DNA of 51,035 nt from an uncultured SAR116 cluster alpha proteobacterium (GTDB lineage Bacteria > Pseudomonadota > Alphaproteobacteria > Puniceispirillales > Puniceispirillaceae). How positions within the stretch are numbered: position 1 is the first letter of the stretch; each line of letters opens with the position of its first letter. The position numbers were made by a program, and so were the translations under genes. Below the pieces are notes generated by a model, which saw only the letters and a program-made list of their open reading frames with translations, was not told where the DNA came from and did no database searches. Below are positions 41,097-51,035 of this stretch, in pieces. The DNA lies in NCBI GenBank assembly GCA_902559985.1, contig CACEJY010000011.1, positions 1 through 51,035 of the forward strand, in the 5' to 3' direction.

Positions 41097-42896
41097 ATGC
41101 CTGACGATAATTTAAAAATTGTTGAAGTTCTCTCCTCAGCAAAATCTATCGCTGTTGTGGGTGCGAGTGACGATTGGAGAAGGCCTTCATTTTATGTAAT
41201 GAAATATCTCCAAAAACAGGGCTATCGCATTGTGCCAATCAATCCCAGGTTAGAGGGCAAATCAATACTTGGTGAGACTGTTTACAAAAATATCGGCGAA
41301 GTCCCATGTCCTATCGACATTGTAGATGTATTCAGACCGCCCAAGGAATGTCCTGAAATAGCGGAGAATGCTGTTGCAATAGGTGTCTCCTGCCTTTGGA
41401 TGCAAATTGGGATTAATAGTGAGGAGGCTGCCTCAATTGCTGAGGCTGCTGGTTTGATAGTAATTATGAACAGATGCCCAAAAATTGAACATTCAAGGTT
41501 GTCCGGGCTTCTTGGGAATGGTGGGTTTGTTTCTGGTCTATTGTCAGCAAGACGTCAAACTGTCCCAAATCCACCTCGTCCGCTCCGCAACGGCGGATAT
41601 ATTGAATCTAATAATCCAGAGACGCTCGCGGTGCATGCCGGAACACGCCCCGATGGTGCTACCGGGGCTCGGATTACGCCGTTGTATCAAACGGCTTCCT
41701 TTACCTTTGATGACGCAGACCATGCAGCTAGCCTATATGACTTGCAGGAGCCCGGTAATGTCTATGGTCGGCTGTCCAACCCCACAACTGCAGCTTTAGA
41801 ACAAAAAATTGCTTCTTTAGACGGGGGTTTGGGGGCTTGTTGCGTTGCCTCTGGGCATGCCGCTCAACTTGTAGCGCTGTATCCACTGATGGCACCAGGT
41901 CGTAAAATAGTGGCTAGCAAGCAATTATACGGTGGATCGATAACACAATTTACCCAAGCATTTAAGAATTTTGGGTGGGAGGCTGAGCTGGTTGATATCC
42001 ATGATCTTGACGCAGTTAAAAAGGCAATATTGAAGCCTGAGGTTGCCGTTTTGTTTTCTGAGAGTCTATCGAATCCAGATGGCTCAATCACTGATATAGA
42101 GGCTTTATCAAAACTAGCGAAGAGTTCTCAGATTCCACTTTTCATAGATAACACTATGGCCACGAGCGTGATGTGTAAGCCCGGTATTTTTGGTGCAGAC
42201 GTAGTTTTATATTCAACCACAAAATTTATGTCTGGACATGGAAATGCATTGGGTGGCGCGGTTGTCGACATGGGTAGCTTCGACTGGATGAATGCCCGCC
42301 ATTCTTCATTGTTGTCGGATGCTAACCCTGCCTATCATGGTATTCGTTTTGCTGAGACATTTGGTAAGCTCAGTTATATTACGTTTTGCCATGCTAGCGT
42401 ACTGCGGGACCTTGGGCCAACTATGGCGCCAATGAATGCCTTCTTAACATTAACCGGTATAGAAACTTTACCGCTTAGAATGCGTCAACATAATGAAAAT
42501 GCTGAAAAAGTTGCGCATTTCCTGAGAGACCATCCGGCAGTCATTAATGTTTCGTGGGCTGGGTTTTCAGATAGTCCTCATTATGATCGGGCGAAAAAAT
42601 ATTTGGCTTTTGGCGCTGGATCAGTATTCACCTTTGAACTTAAAGATGGTTACCACGCGGGACAAAAATTAGTTGAAAATTGTAATTTGCTCTCCCACCT
42701 AGCAAATATTGGCGATACGAGAAGTTTGATTATTCACCCTGCAAGCACGATCCATCGCCAATTAACTGACACTCAGAGGGAACAAGCTGGCATTGGAGCG
42801 GGTACAATTAGAGTGTCAATTGGAATTGAAAATCCCAATGATATTATCGCGGATCTCGAGGGTGCACTAGAAGTCGTCAATGGAAATAAATTATAA
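41097..42896 (+). CDS. CoA-binding domain fused to O-acetylhomoserine sulfhydrylase-like enzyme
   Basis: The 599-residue product has two parts. Residues 1-145 form a Rossmann CoA-binding domain (AVVGASDDWRRPSFYVMKYL, VPINPRLEGKSILGET, and NRCPKIEH with a conserved Cys). From about 173 onward it is a Cys/Met-metabolism PLP enzyme (ETLAVHAGTRPDGATGARIT, FDDADHAASL, NVYGRLSNPTTAALEQKIAS, and LYSTTKFMSGHGNALGG with the PLP Lys376), closest to O-acetylhomoserine aminocarboxypropyltransferase. It would use sulfide or a thiol to make homocysteine. The two domains are separate genes in some relatives, which I infer from general knowledge. A GAGGAA site precedes the ATG. Confidence 0.82.
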   Translation: MPDDNLKIVEVLSSAKSIAVVGASDDWRRPSFYVMKYLQKQGYRIVPINPRLEGKSILGETVYKNIGEVPCPIDIVDVFRPPKECPEIAENAVAIGVSCLWMQIGINSEEAASIAEAAGLIVIMNRCPKIEHSRLSGLLGNGGFVSGLLSARRQTVPNPPRPLRNGGYIESNNPETLAVHAGTRPDGATGARITPLYQTASFTFDDADHAASLYDLQEPGNVYGRLSNPTTAALEQKIASLDGGLGACCVASGHAAQLVALYPLMAPGRKIVASKQLYGGSITQFTQAFKNFGWEAELVDIHDLDAVKKAILKPEVAVLFSESLSNPDGSITDIEALSKLAKSSQIPLFIDNTMATSVMCKPGIFGADVVLYSTTKFMSGHGNALGGAVVDMGSFDWMNARHSSLLSDANPAYHGIRFAETFGKLSYITFCHASVLRDLGPTMAPMNAFLTLTGIETLPLRMRQHNENAEKVAHFLRDHPAVINVSWAGFSDSPHYDRAKKYLAFGAGSVFTFELKDGYHAGQKLVENCNLLSHLANIGDTRSLIIHPASTIHRQLTDTQREQAGIGAGTIRVSIGIENPNDIIADLEGALEVVNGNKL

Positions 42897-44489: not shown

Positions 44490-44723
44490 TAGCTTTCATC
44501 CGTTTAGGTTACTCACAAAAAAAGATTTCTGTAACGGGTGATGTGATTTTTGCATTGATATTGAAGATTTATAAACCTATGCCACGGCCAACGCTTGACA
44601 TAATTTGGGTTAAGCATTACCGGTGCGACGTTAAACGATTTTTAGTCAGATCTGACAAACGATTACCTTCACTTTGTTACCCAACCAATCCCGTCATCCG
44701 ATGCAGCGCCTGGAGTTTATCAA

Positions 44724-47700
44724 ATGGACCGTCTTGCTGATTTTATTGTTAATCACCGTATCAAGGTTGCCATTATAACACTATTGATGGCCTTTACTGT
44801 CTTTGCTGGCATTCCAAATTTGAGGCTCGATACTGATGGTCGGGTATTTATGGCGAATGATAATCCAGATAAAATCTTTCTCGATAAATTCGAACAGGAG
44901 TTTGCCAAAGACGATAACCTCGCGATCGTTATAGTGCCAAAAAACGGTGATGTCTTTACACCACAAACACTTGGTGCGATTGGCGAGCTTACTGAAGATT
45001 TGTGGAACTTGCCCTACGTTAGGCTTGTTAATTCAATTACAAGGTTTCAAAACACCTACGCAAACGGGGATATGATGGTGGTAGAGGATTTGATCCCTGA
45101 TCCATCGATGGTGACAGAAAGTGAAGCCTCTGCAGCTAAAAACGTTGCTTTGAACCGGATTGAGATACGCAACAGCCTTATCAATGATGATGCGTCAGCG
45201 ACTGCCATTTCAGTCATATTTCGCCTTCCTGGAATTGATTTAGCCTCAGAAATCCCAAAAATCAGCGCTGAGTCTGAGCCTCTCCTCGAACGCTATAGAA
45301 CCAAATATCCTGCAATAACATTCAAGGCCAGTGGGTCAGTAGCTATAAGTCAGGCCTTTGCTACAGCTAGCCAGAAGGATGGTGGCACGCTAACACCGGC
45401 AATGCTTTTTGCCATGTTAGCGATCGTTGGGGTGTTGCTTCGCTCTGCTACTGGTTCACTGCTGATCCTTATGCTTGCCGCACTGTCTGCCCTTGTTTCG
45501 CTTGGGGCGCTCGGTTGGACGGGTATTCCAATTAATTCTGCCACCGCAGTGGCTCCATTAATGGTCATTACCCTTGCGGTTGCCAGCAGTGTGCATGTGC
45601 TGTCCTCGATCAGACAGACAATGCAGAAGACTGTTGACCGCACGATCTGGGCACGACACGCAGTCTCTGATCATGGACTTGGCATTACCGTGGCAGTGTT
45701 TACTACCGCAATTGGTTTCCTGTCCTTAAACTTCTCAATCTCACCCCCATTTCGCCAACTTGGTAATATGGTAGCCGCTGGCATGATTGGCGTCTGGGTA
45801 TTTACACTTTTTCTTCTTCCTGGATTGATTTGTTGGTTACCAATAAAACAGAATCGAAAGCCGGCATTGGTTGACCAAATTATGGTTGCGATTGGTGAAT
45901 TCGTCATCCGATATCAAAAGCGACTTCTCCTCGGTATTCCTGTGATCATTATAGGTTTTGCTGCTGGCATCTCACACATTAAGCTCGAAGATGACTTTTT
46001 GCGTTATTTTGATGAGAGTTTTGAGACTAGGCAGGCCACTGATCTCTACGAAACTGAACTTGGCGGGTTGAATGTCTTAGAGTACTCGGTTGATACAGGT
46101 ATTGAAAGTGGCATAACTTCAGTTGCCTATCTCCAGAAGCTTGACGAGCTGTCTAATTTTCTGCGCGCGCAGCAAGAAGTTAGTCACATACGCTCGCTTA
46201 GCGACACGATCAAGCGCTTAAATATGAACATGAATGCCGATAATCCAGCTTTCTACCGCATTCCAGAAACTGATGAAGAGGCATCGCAGTTTTTATTCCT
46301 TTATGAATTGTCACTTGGCTACGGCATGGACCTTACCGACCAGATCAATGTCGATAGGTCATCAACTCGGGTGTCGGCTTTTGTTCGCTACGCTACCACG
46401 CGCCAATTATTGGCATTGGATGATAAAATTCAGCATTGGTTTGATGAAAACGCGCCCGAGTTGAAAAGCCCAGTCACAGGCCAAACTCATGTATACACCA
46501 TGATTTCAGCACGCGACGTTCCTTCAATGTTGAAGGGGACTACTTTGGCGCTGATATTTATCTCGTTCGTCATTTTCCTCGTACTTCGTAATCTGAAGCT
46601 TGGACTCATCTCGCTAGTGCCAAATCTGCTACCAGCCATAATGGGCTTTGGCTTGTGGGGTTACTCGGTTGGCAGCGTAACGCTCGCGGTATCAATTGTT
46701 GTGGCAATGACGCTTGGAATTGTTGTCGATGACACGGTGCATTTTATGCTAAAGTACGCTAATGCGCGTAAACGAGGAGAAAGTGCAGAGGACAGCGTGC
46801 GCCACGCCTTTCGTTCGGTTGGCATGGCGTTAACCGTTACCTCGCTCGGTCTTGTTATTGGCTTTATTGTTCTTGGGCAGTCGGGTTTTGCAGTAAATAG
46901 AGATATGGCTCGACTGACAGCGATCACTCTTGCTTTCGCCATCTTAGTTGATTTTTTCTTCCTTCCTCCACTTCTGATTTTCTTAGACAGGGTAAAAAAC
47001 ATGAATAGCAAAGCCACAGCATCCGCCTCGCTCACGCTTATGTTTAGCTTTGTTACGACGTTTTTGGTTATGCAATCTCCTACGTCAGTTAACGCTTCAA
47101 ACGATAAGGGCATTGCAATAGCCACTGAGGTTGACAACCGCGATAAGGGTTGGGGTGATGTCACTGTTGAGGGCAAAATGACTCTCAAGAACAAGGCAGG
47201 TAGGGAATCAATTCGTCAGTTCCGTTCAACTATTTTGGAAGCAAGTAGCGTAGGCGAAGGGGACCAGTCGATCATTACGTTTTCAAAACCACGCGATGTC
47301 AGGGGCACAGCTTTGTTGACGCATTCCAAGATTGAGCCGGAGGATGACCTTCAATGGATTTTTTTGCCAGCGGTGAAGAGAGTAAAGCGAATTTCCTCAT
47401 CAAACCGCACAGGCAAATTTGTTTCCTCAGAATTTTCCTATGAGGATCTGGGGTCCGAAGAAGTGGCTGATAATGATCACATATGGATTGAAGATAGGTC
47501 ATGTGTGCATGATGCCGGGATAACTTGCGCGGTTGTGGAGAGCCGACCAAAAAATAAAAGATCAGGCTATTCAAAGCGGATTTCGTTCGTTGATCTTGAC
47601 GAATACCGGGTACACCAGATCGATTTCTATAATCGACGTGGTGATCTAGAAAAAACATTGAAATTTTTTGATTTTCGTCGGTATGAGAATCGTTTTTGGC

Positions 47701-47834
47701 GCGCTCATGTCATGGTCATGGTCAACCTACAGACAGGAAAATCAACACGTCTTTCATGGGGTGATTACAGGTTTAGAAATGGCCTAACGCAGCGTGACTT
47801 CACCCCTCAGGGGCTAGCCAAAGCCAGTCGATGA
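44724..47834 (+). CDS. RND/MMPL exporter fused to an outer membrane lipoprotein-sorting-like domain
   Basis: The 1036-residue product has two parts. Residues 1-759 are an MMPL-type RND exporter with about twelve membrane helices, two periplasmic domains, and motifs such as PLMVITLAVASSVHVLSSI and VVAMTLGIVVDDTVHFMLKY in the two sterol-sensing-like repeats. At Met760 (47001) a signal-peptide-like stretch (SLTLMFSFVTTFLVMQSPTS) starts a domain of about 275 residues typical of outer membrane lipoprotein-sorting proteins (VRGTALLTHSKIEPEDDLQW; KRVKRISSSNRTGKFVSSEF; SYEDLGSEEV). In relatives the two are adjacent genes (family knowledge). The outer membrane protein gene follows with a 4-base overlap. 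Confidence 0.82.
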   Translation: MDRLADFIVNHRIKVAIITLLMAFTVFAGIPNLRLDTDGRVFMANDNPDKIFLDKFEQEFAKDDNLAIVIVPKNGDVFTPQTLGAIGELTEDLWNLPYVRLVNSITRFQNTYANGDMMVVEDLIPDPSMVTESEASAAKNVALNRIEIRNSLINDDASATAISVIFRLPGIDLASEIPKISAESEPLLERYRTKYPAITFKASGSVAISQAFATASQKDGGTLTPAMLFAMLAIVGVLLRSATGSLLILMLAALSALVSLGALGWTGIPINSATAVAPLMVITLAVASSVHVLSSIRQTMQKTVDRTIWARHAVSDHGLGITVAVFTTAIGFLSLNFSISPPFRQLGNMVAAGMIGVWVFTLFLLPGLICWLPIKQNRKPALVDQIMVAIGEFVIRYQKRLLLGIPVIIIGFAAGISHIKLEDDFLRYFDESFETRQATDLYETELGGLNVLEYSVDTGIESGITSVAYLQKLDELSNFLRAQQEVSHIRSLSDTIKRLNMNMNADNPAFYRIPETDEEASQFLFLYELSLGYGMDLTDQINVDRSSTRVSAFVRYATTRQLLALDDKIQHWFDENAPELKSPVTGQTHVYTMISARDVPSMLKGTTLALIFISFVIFLVLRNLKLGLISLVPNLLPAIMGFGLWGYSVGSVTLAVSIVVAMTLGIVVDDTVHFMLKYANARKRGESAEDSVRHAFRSVGMALTVTSLGLVIGFIVLGQSGFAVNRDMARLTAITLAFAILVDFFFLPPLLIFLDRVKNMNSKATASASLTLMFSFVTTFLVMQSPTSVNASNDKGIAIATEVDNRDKGWGDVTVEGKMTLKNKAGRESIRQFRSTILEASSVGEGDQSIITFSKPRDVRGTALLTHSKIEPEDDLQWIFLPAVKRVKRISSSNRTGKFVSSEFSYEDLGSEEVADNDHIWIEDRSCVHDAGITCAVVESRPKNKRSGYSKRISFVDLDEYRVHQIDFYNRRGDLEKTLKFFDFRRYENRFWRAHVMVMVNLQTGKSTRLSWGDYRFRNGLTQRDFTPQGLAKASR

Positions 47835-49045
47835 CTTTAAAAACCATTATTTTTCGTACCGCAGCTCTAATACCGGCGGTTTTTGTTTACCTAGCCGCTT
47901 TAAAAGCGCCTGTTGCTGCCGCGAGTACTGTGGAGCAACGTGGCGAGGCGACTTTTGAAGCAAGCTGGTATCCGCGATCAGCTGCTTTTGATGGCCAGAA
48001 AAACAGCTTTTTTCATGCCGAGGTAAAACCTGAATTATCAGTTTTTGACGAGGCCACTGAATGGATTTTACAGCCCCGGATCAGTGGTGGTACAGCAGGG
48101 GTTGGTGTATTTGACTTTCGTGAAGCGCATGTCACTAGCCGCATTGGAGAGATAGATGTGTTGGTTGGCAACACTATTCTATTTTGGGGTAAGGTTGAAA
48201 GCTACAATCCAGTAGACGTCGTTAATAGCCTCGATTATAGCCGTGGCTTGATGCGAAGTAAGAAACTTGGTGCGCCAGTCTTACAGGTCTCCTTGCCGAT
48301 TGGCTCTGGGCAGTTGGACTTGTTCGCCTTAGATTTTGTCAAAAACATATATCCAAGCCAAACACTTCGAGAACATGTCGGGACAAGGTTTGGGGAGCAG
48401 GTGAGCTTTTCCGGTGGTGCTTCTGAAAGTGATATTGGACAGGCGGCGCGATGGTCAGCTTACTATAGAAATGTCGATCTCGGACTCAGTTGGTTCCGTG
48501 GCATTGGCAATGCGCCTCGTCTAATGTCTCAATCTAATGGCACTCTCCAACCTGATTACAGCCGTATCAATCAATTGGCACTGGATATCCAATATCTGCA
48601 GGGTGATACTGCTTTTAAGGGTGAGCTTATCCGTCGCAAAGGCCAATATGATAGGCTTGGCGCTGCTAAAAGCTATCGTGCAGGGGTGCTAGGGCTGGAA
48701 CATAGTTTTTACGACTTTGCGAACAGTGGAAGTGATCTGGTTCTCGTTACAGAATATGCCTTTGACAGTCGAAATAGCTTATCGCATAGCGGCTTTCAGA
48801 ATGATTTGACCATCGGTTTGCGCTGGTTAAAGAACGATATTGATGATACTGAGGCGTTGACGCTTCTTACTCAAGACTTGGATCATAAATCGCAACTCTT
48901 AACCATTAGATTTGATAGACGGATTAGTGACCGTGTTACTTTTCAAACCAGCGTGCGTCTTCCATCACGCTTTCATCGCGATCCTAATAGTTCAGTGTTG
49001 GCAAAAGATGCAGCAATTATTGCAGCGTTTACTTATAGATATTAG
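47831..49045 (+). CDS. Outer membrane beta-barrel protein linked to the RND exporter
   Basis: The 404-residue product has a signal peptide (FRTAALIPAVFVYLAALKAP region, cleavage near residue 31) and alternating polar/apolar strands with aromatic girdles throughout, ending in AAFTYRY, with a C-terminal aromatic residue expected for outer membrane barrels. It overlaps the RND gene by ATGA and is the usual third member next to such exporters. It may export or bind the transported substrate across the outer membrane. Confidence 0.72.
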   Translation: MTLKTIIFRTAALIPAVFVYLAALKAPVAAASTVEQRGEATFEASWYPRSAAFDGQKNSFFHAEVKPELSVFDEATEWILQPRISGGTAGVGVFDFREAHVTSRIGEIDVLVGNTILFWGKVESYNPVDVVNSLDYSRGLMRSKKLGAPVLQVSLPIGSGQLDLFALDFVKNIYPSQTLREHVGTRFGEQVSFSGGASESDIGQAARWSAYYRNVDLGLSWFRGIGNAPRLMSQSNGTLQPDYSRINQLALDIQYLQGDTAFKGELIRRKGQYDRLGAAKSYRAGVLGLEHSFYDFANSGSDLVLVTEYAFDSRNSLSHSGFQNDLTIGLRWLKNDIDDTEALTLLTQDLDHKSQLLTIRFDRRISDRVTFQTSVRLPSRFHRDPNSSVLAKDAAIIAAFTYRY

Positions 49046-49134: not shown

Positions 49135-49959
49135 GTGCAACCAACGGCTAAAGTTGAAATGCTAGCCCTGCAACGAGCGAGGGGTGAGATTGATCTTGCT
49201 GTGGTGGCAGGAAAGCTCGTTCGTTTCTATCAATCAGGCTCATCAAAGATATTTCTGCCAAAAACCTATGCGACAACACTTGAGGCGGTGTTGGTTAATA
49301 CGGCAGGTGGGCTTACCGGAGGTGATGAATTTGATGTGAAGCTGGCAGCTTACGGCGACACGCACTTGACTGTCTCTACTCAAACAGCCGAGCGTGTGTA
49401 TAGGGCGTTAGGCCCTGATACTGCGAAAATGCGGATTGAAATTACACTGACTGGACCCGCCACCCTGCATTGGCTTCCGCAAGAAACAATAATGTTTGAT
49501 GGCGCTGGATTTTCTAGGAACTTAGATGTCAAAATGGATCAGGACGCCAGCTTTTTTGCTAGCGAAATTATGGTGTTTGGGCGGACAGCAATGCGCGAAA
49601 CGGTAACAAAAGGGCGTGTCTTTGATCAATGGAGGATCCACCGCGGTGGCAAATTAATTCATGCTGAAGCCCTTCGTCTAGAAGGAGATATTGTTGGCAA
49701 ATTAGATCATCTAGCGAGTGCAGCTGGTTGTGTCAGTTTTGCAACAACAATATTTATCGGCCGTCATTCTGATGAAAAAGCCAGTGCAGTGCGTGAGTTT
49801 TTCAAAACTTATCATGATATAAAAACGGCTGTCTCGGCATGGGATGGTAAATTGGTAGTCCGAAGCGTTGGCGGTGATACGGCTCGGCTCAAAAAGGTGA
49901 CAGCAAGATTTATCGAGCAATTTCGTCAGATAGCGAACCCCCGCGTTTGGAATTACTGA
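49135..49959 (+). CDS. ureD: Urease accessory protein UreD
   Basis: UreD (UreH) is part of the UreDFG complex that inserts nickel into urease. The 274-residue product starts at GTG 49135 and has the family features LEAVLVNTAGGLTGGDEFDV near residue 46 and TAERVYRALGPDTAKMRIEI, then LHWLPQETIMFDGAGFSR. It begins the urease operon; ureA follows after 55 bases. Confidence 0.93.
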   Translation: MQPTAKVEMLALQRARGEIDLAVVAGKLVRFYQSGSSKIFLPKTYATTLEAVLVNTAGGLTGGDEFDVKLAAYGDTHLTVSTQTAERVYRALGPDTAKMRIEITLTGPATLHWLPQETIMFDGAGFSRNLDVKMDQDASFFASEIMVFGRTAMRETVTKGRVFDQWRIHRGGKLIHAEALRLEGDIVGKLDHLASAAGCVSFATTIFIGRHSDEKASAVREFFKTYHDIKTAVSAWDGKLVVRSVGGDTARLKKVTARFIEQFRQIANPRVWNY

Positions 49960-50014
49960 TTCCATATTTTGGAATTATCAAACCATAGGGTTATTAAGCA
50001 AGGAGAGTTAGCAA

Positions 50015-50323
50015 ATGAAATTAACCCCACGTGAAAAAGACAAATTACTGGTCAGCGTTGCAGCCATGGTTGCAAGGGGAAGACTGCAACGGGGCGTCAA
50101 GTTGAACTACCCTGAAGCAATTGCCTTAATCACAGATTTTGTTGTAGAAGGTGCGCGTGATGGCCGCAGTGTTGCCGATTTAATGGAAGCAGGTGCACAC
50201 GTCATTAGTCTTGGTGACTGTATGCCTGGTGTTGCTGAAATGATCAATGATGTTCAGGTTGAAGCAACGTTTCCCGATGGCACCAAACTCGTAACGGTTC
50301 ATCACCCGATCCGCAAAGCATAA
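50015..50323 (+). CDS. ureA: Urease gamma subunit
   Basis: UreA is the small gamma subunit of the urea-splitting enzyme. The 102-residue product has the family start [20 protein letters not shown], the [20 protein letters not shown] helix and the [20 protein letters not shown] end. Length is normal. An AAGGAGAG ribosome binding site precedes it. Confidence 0.96.
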
Positions 50324-50358
50324 CCTATTGCAGATAAAAAATGATGAGAGGAAATCGC

Positions 50359-50664
50359 ATGATACCCGGAGAAATTATCGTTGCGGATGGCGATGTCATC
50401 CTGAATGAGGGGCGCTCAGCCATTACCCTTAGTGTTGCAAATACCGGTGATCGGCCGGTGCAAATTGGAAGCCATTATCATTTTGCTGAAGCCAACGCGG
50501 CACTTGATTTTGATCGAAAGAGTGCACGCGGCATGAGGTTGGATATTGCTGCTGGAACAGCGGTGCGATTTGAACCGGGCCAGCTGCGCGATGTTCAATT
50601 AATACCAATAGTGGGTGGACGCCGGGTCTTTGGCTTTAACGCCCAGATCATGGGAGATCTTTAG
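50359..50664 (+). CDS. ureB: Urease beta subunit
   Basis: UreB is the beta subunit of urease. I start it at the ATG at 50359 ([20 protein letters not shown]), six bases after AGAGGA; an ATG six codons upstream is open but does not match the family start. The 101-residue product has [19 protein letters not shown] and the [19 protein letters not shown] end. Its stop is immediately followed by the ureC start. Confidence 0.96.
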
Positions 50665-51035
50665 ATGCCAGCAAAAATTTCGCGAAAAATCTATGCCGAC
50701 ATGTATGGGCCAACCACCGGTGATAAAGTGCGGCTTGCGGATACTGACTTGATCATCGAGGTTGAACGCGATTTGACGCATTATGGTGAAGAAGTGAAGT
50801 TCGGTGGTGGTAAGGTTATCCGAGATGGTATGGGTCAATCGCAAGTGACACGAGTTGATGGCGCAGTTGATACCGTTATTACCAACGCGTTGATCGTCGA
50901 TGTATCCGGCATCTATAAGGCCGATGTTGGGCTCAAGGACGGAAAAATTTGTGCCATTGGCAAGGCTGGTAACCCCGATACTCAGCCGGAAGTTGATATA
51001 ATCATTGGCCCGGGAACTGAGGCAATCGCGGCCGA
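50665..51035 (+). CDS. ureC: Urease alpha subunit (partial, cut by window end)
   Basis: UreC is the catalytic subunit with the nickel centre. The visible 123 codons begin [20 protein letters not shown] and include [40 protein letters not shown] and [16 protein letters not shown], which match UreC from its start. The ATG abuts the ureB stop (TTAGATG). The gene continues outside the window; the nickel-binding residues are not visible here. Confidence 0.96.

Follow-up and report, generated by a model that had tools for sequence, protein, structure and literature searches.

Does an open reading frame (ORF) that joins a membrane pump to a periplasmic carrier yield one tethered protein or two separate ones? 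The question is raised by contig CACEJY010000011.1 of an uncultured alphaproteobacterium of the SAR116 cluster (assembly GCA_902559985.1), analysed from position 1 to 51,035 of the forward strand; this whole stretch of 51,035 nucleotides is called the window below. At 44724-47834 of the + strand, a single ORF of 1036 codons without a stop carries, in one frame, the domains of an RND transporter and of a LolA-like carrier. Our reading, to which we assign a probability of about 0.6 on the strength of sequence comparison, is that this is a two-in-one gene for a pump and a periplasmic carrier, the carrier being released rather than permanently tethered. The parts of the ORF are as follows.

44712..44715, + strand: GGAG, probable ribosome-binding site of the full-length ORF, read from the sequence
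44724..46976, + strand: RND (MMPL/HAE3-like) transporter, residues 1-751, with Pfam MMPL above cut-off
46989..46992, + strand: AGGG, internal Shine-Dalgarno-like site (codon 756 is AGG), 8 nucleotides 5' of the ATG at 47001
47001..47003, + strand: ATG760, probable internal start of the free carrier, present in 16 of 17 members of the window's clade, with weak mRNA structure
47001..47096, + strand: predicted internal signal peptide, residues 760-791, core about 770-784, predicted cleavage between VNA and S; motif conserved in 28 of 28 fused proteins
47097..47831, + strand: mature LolA-like carrier domain, residues 792-1036 (PF17131; match to PDB 3bk5)

On the two-in-one reading, ribosomes starting at 44724 would make a 1036-residue polyprotein that consists of a 12-helix RND transporter with a cytoplasmic C-terminus, followed by the internal signal peptide. 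This peptide would export the LolA-like domain, and signal peptidase I would cut after Ala791 to free the carrier. In the window's clade, a second initiation at ATG 47001, via AGGG, would give a carrier whose signal peptide is an ordinary N-terminal one. Both routes would end at Ala791 and produce an identical mature carrier, and the internal start could raise the amount of carrier over that of pump. The probable task of the carrier would be to ferry a hydrophobic molecule between the RND pump, driven by protons, and the outer-membrane product of the next gene.

An old and conserved fusion

In a Pfam scan, MMPL (PF03176) matches the first part of the ORF in two stretches, with 80.6 bits against a cut-off of 20.5, which places the pump among MMPL/RND proteins; its best NCBIfam match, TIGR00921 (HAE3), stays below cut-off (165.5 bits against 351.9), so that it is called HAE3-like only. 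LolA_like (PF17131) covers residues 847-1032 with 172.1 bits (gathering cut-off 30), and the carrier part is closely related by sequence to PDB 3bk5, named 'putative outer membrane lipoprotein-sorting protein' (residues 793-1029, E 6.6e-58). DUF1329 (PF07044) also scores on the ORF, as a partial match (53 bits against 23.1). Lipoprotein sorting is the name of the family, not the assigned cargo of this carrier. LolA of the Lol pathway takes lipoproteins from LolCDE and delivers them to LolB or the outer membrane, whereas the gene partner here is an RND pump. The minus-strand ORF that lies over the joint (46661-47194) has no Pfam match, and PADLOC returned no defence-system match. An AlphaFold model of the fused protein, built from an alignment of 4 sequences, is poor, with a mean predicted local distance difference test (pLDDT) score of 38.3, and gives no help.

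A match at E 1e-200 or better was obtained in 31 of the 136 genomes of the order, and 28 of these matches are stop-free across the joint; the remaining three, at 39% identity, have a stop there. The source genome of the window is incomplete, at 1.7 Mb, and a SAR116-cluster bacterium has a locus 92% identical to that of the window. In a tree of 48 pumps, the 27 fused sequences form one clade (support 0.96) apart from the 21 others; L009, which is near-identical to L008, was left out of the trees and of the scans of the second clade described below. The sister of the fused clade, with support of 1.0, is a split gene pair (L033/L034, 55% identity), in which the carrier start overlaps the pump stop as ATGA and AGGA lies seven bases 5' of the carrier ATG. 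In all 17 split pairs examined at the DNA level, the carrier start is close to the pump stop. The fusion is old and conserved, and the presence of the same frame in 28 genomes rules out a sequencing error or a chimera. An earlier note on this DNA, which had read the frame as continuous for 1036 codons past the usual end of the exporter, is borne out, both Pfam domains being in frame; neither of the two outcomes that it named as fatal, an error that removed a stop or orthologues that are all split, applies, the sister pair being split and the gene fused in 28 genomes of the order.

We also sampled 385 genomes of the class and 398 of the phylum; apart from the window's fused clade, single ORFs across the joint were confirmed there only in L082, L107 and L108, at ~24% identity, and these fusions arose separately from that clade. 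Four further candidates, G300, G816, G557 and G782, which showed an open frame at the joint in the genome search, were rejected on account of a stop between the genes. The 1207-residue ORF of L081 (1891-5511, genome G339) was likewise discarded, being a related RND pump with a class I/II aminotransferase domain. In G571, G542, G608, G649, G675, G758, G708 and G356, distant pumps of 22-26% identity carry C-terminal extensions, their open frames being 913-938 residues long.

Within the window's genus, the intact gene is present in just 2 of 16 genomes. G009, of this genus, carries an operon remnant (L095, 3562-4009) in which pump residues 1-44 lie 8 base pairs from residues 302-404 of the outer-membrane protein, as if produced by one deletion. 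In G008, of the same genus, the pump is reduced to residues 1-89 (L094, 6554-6820), with the same MFS gene adjacent.

The predicted internal signal peptide and its cleavage motif

All 28 fused linkers combine a positive n-region, a hydrophobic core and a small-x-Ala end, the pattern of a predicted signal peptidase I substrate, and the motif A/V/S-x-A is found in every one of them although the rest of the linker has diverged. Among 10 representatives, none of residues 752-790 is invariant; A791 and S792 are the sole invariant residues between 752 and 795. Position 791-792 coincides with the ends of the N-terminal signal peptides of split relatives and with the point where the match to 3bk5 begins. 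In the distant fusions L082, L107 and L108, the motifs ASA, AQA and AAA occur. From this pattern we infer that the carrier is cut free. RND transporters have a cytoplasmic C-terminal end, and the helix that follows the pump would therefore export the next domain.

The same topology would suit a permanent tether, with the hydrophobic stretch serving as an uncut 13th transmembrane helix that holds the LolA-like domain at the mouth of the pump. The stretch is hydrophobic enough for this role (mean Kyte-Doolittle 2.1-3.0 over 12 residues), follows a cytoplasmic end and lies in a frame that is open in 28 of 28 sequences. We nevertheless consider such a tether quite improbable, because A/V/S-x-A is kept throughout while the linker around it diverges, and an uncut anchor needs no -3/-1 pattern. 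The signals of an internal start, described next, also speak against it.

Signals of a possible internal start

The helix that the earlier note saw beginning at Met760 (47001) is indeed signal-peptide-like, but its statement that the joint has no ribosome-binding-site break is wrong: AGGG at 46989-46992 sits 8 nucleotides 5' of ATG 47001, and this motif and its spacing resemble the ribosome-binding sites of other ORFs in the window. Of the 17 sequences of the window's clade, 16 have AGG at codon 756 and 16 have ATG at codon 760. AGG makes up just 3-16% of the arginine codons per gene in this clade, and at only 2 of 40 all-arginine columns is a single codon kept in 16 sequences. A same-codon pair scan of the whole gene puts codons 754-760 in first place, both among 1006 segments with 16 sequences and among 1004 with 17; the smaller set excludes L065, which is without AGG756 and ATG760 and was restored in the 17-sequence rerun. 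With segment lengths from 4 to 15, the maximum of the constraint scan is always at 749-756. By parsimony, codons 753-759 have undergone 5 synonymous changes where 15.8 would be expected (P 0.0013 with 17 sequences, P 0.0006 with 16).

The other fused sequences have ATG757 in place of ATG760, and an ATG at one or the other codon is present in 28 of 28; Met760 as an ancestral start retained everywhere is ruled out, since it is missing in 12 of the 28. In the clade without AGG, a peak of constraint lies just 5' of ATG757, high by pair counts and modest by parsimony (P 0.017). The mRNA structure at the internal ATG is within the weakest 1-21% of its own gene in 26 of 26 genes, a set that excludes L065, and weaker than in synonymous-random versions in 21 of these; the same comparison at three control positions gave mean z of -0.46, +0.27 and -0.67. 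Because of the synonymous-codon constraint and the weak local mRNA structure, initiation inside the gene gains support, strongly only in the window's clade. It is only there that a Shine-Dalgarno-like site, a conserved start codon and synonymous constraint occur together, pointing to a putative internal start. Of the two outcomes between which the earlier note had left the choice, the internal start at 47001 gains by this evidence and the tether loses by the motif kept in 28 of 28.

Several observations weigh against this interpretation. L065, a member of the window's clade, has lost both AGG756 and ATG760, the latter to ATA. By raw parsimony difference, codons 753-759 rank only 8 of 990 (16 sequences), below a peak at 670-676, and the joint segment of the second clade ranks 30 of 964. 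The segment test was devised after the AGG codon had been spotted. The 11 fused members of g7, g11 and f2 show no clear Shine-Dalgarno site 5' of ATG757. As for the weak mRNA structure, 3 of 16 and 2 of 10 sequences do not exceed their synonymous-random versions, and the linker is rich in K and M, which makes its RNA AT-rich. Codons 670-676 (46731-46751), inside the pump, form a second peak of synonymous constraint in the window's clade.

If the internal start is real, it could be the sole source of carrier, made from ATG 47001 alone, with read-through from the pump a tolerated accident without a role. The synonymous constraint and the ribosome-binding site would fit this, as would the sister pair, which is an ordinary translationally coupled overlap. 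The frame itself argues otherwise. On average, a sequence has 1.32 nonsense neighbours one step away from codons 757-759, and the tree measures ~14 substitutions per site at fourfold sites; with one third of the rate assigned to each change, ~6 nonsense events would be expected there if harmless, against 0 in 28 sequences, a rough, uncorrected estimate that ignores constraint from the ribosome-binding site. Furthermore, the gene is fused in L065 and in the second clade even though neither has the AGG/ATG760 pair. We therefore regard a functionless read-through as unlikely. About equally doubtful is the opposite possibility, that all carrier comes from the polyprotein by signal-peptidase cleavage and that the region of AGG756 owes its conservation to something else, for instance a pause of the ribosome at the last helix of the pump. 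The distant fusions L107 and L108 fit this possibility, with a cleavage motif and no plausible start codon ahead of the hydrophobic core, whereas the ATG at 757 or 760 in every fused sequence of the order, and the weak mRNA structure around it, do not. Within the two-in-one reading, we put forward only tentatively that selection keeps both the read-through polyprotein and the internal start, one frame setting the pump:carrier ratio and signal peptidase making the two routes converge on one mature carrier.

The downstream gene, related systems and implications

Directly 3' of the fused ORF lies a gene whose product may complete the system.

47831..49045, + strand: probable outer-membrane beta-barrel partner; its ATG shares bases with the stop codon of the fused ORF (ATGA)

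All 28 fused loci, and most of the split relatives examined, have a homologue of this gene directly 3'. None of 15 homologues scanned has a Pfam match, and hence none has DUF1302; a profile search of the product against the PDB gave nothing credible. The structure model (3 sequences) is beta-rich but poor, with a mean pLDDT of 47.1, and was used solely for beta content. Signal peptide, strand pattern and position suggest that the product is probably an outer-membrane barrel. By analogy with known systems, pump, carrier and outer-membrane protein would probably serve the proton-driven movement of a hydrophobic compound between the inner and outer membranes. Urease genes, from UreD onward (49135-51033), directly follow this unit in the window; the neighbourhood differs in other genera. 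Elsewhere in the window, 41097-42896 encodes a CoA-binding domain (PF13380) fused to an O-acetylhomoserine sulfhydrylase-like enzyme.

The arrangement has a parallel in the fbcH cytochrome b/c1 polyprotein of Bradyrhizobium japonicum, in which a polytopic membrane protein is followed by an internal signal peptide and a periplasmic protein that is cut free; the fbcH proteins are unrelated to the pump-carrier gene, and we know of no internal start in fbcH. In-frame internal starts that give a long and a short product occur in CheA and ClpB, where the short form is a truncated variant, whereas here the short product would be a whole separate partner protein.

The domain architecture itself is already published: TOL_3187 of Thalassolituus oleivorans MIL-1 is an MMPL+LolA-like protein encoded beside a porin and is 42-fold up on the n-C28 alkane (PMC6304351). 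TOL_3187/TOL_3188 are likened to the window gene by description, and the available part of that description does not mention an internal start or an internal signal peptide in TOL_3187 (PMC6304351). Relative to this account, as far as its available text goes, what is new here is the conserved putative internal start and the conserved predicted cleavage site. AmeABCD of Castellaniella defragrans is a system that shares an HAE3 RND pump, a LolA-superfamily (DUF1329) periplasmic protein and an outer-membrane protein, but has separate genes, a DUF1302 outer-membrane protein, unlike the one here without a Pfam match, and an extra periplasmic protein, AmeC (PMC6394551). The system proposed for Pseudomonas putida (PP_0765/PP_0766/PP_2018/PP_2019) combines a beta-barrel, a DUF1329 protein, a periplasmic protein and an efflux transporter and is required for growth on Tween 20; it differs in being unfused and in occupying two separate loci (PMC10866462). 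A Borrelia system of ABC type (PMC13078400) was set aside as a comparison. Searches of a library of open-licence papers turned up no RND-LolA gene described as having an internal start or an internal signal peptide.

For annotation, the locus counsels caution, as a single 1036-residue 'fusion' would be called where cells may make two proteins. It further shows a route by which two translationally coupled genes may become one frame without loss of the separate second protein. Taken as one unit, the HAE3-like pump of the RND family, the LolA-like carrier and the beta-rich, probably outer-membrane protein would bear on the periplasmic transit of hydrophobic compounds in Gram-negative bacteria.
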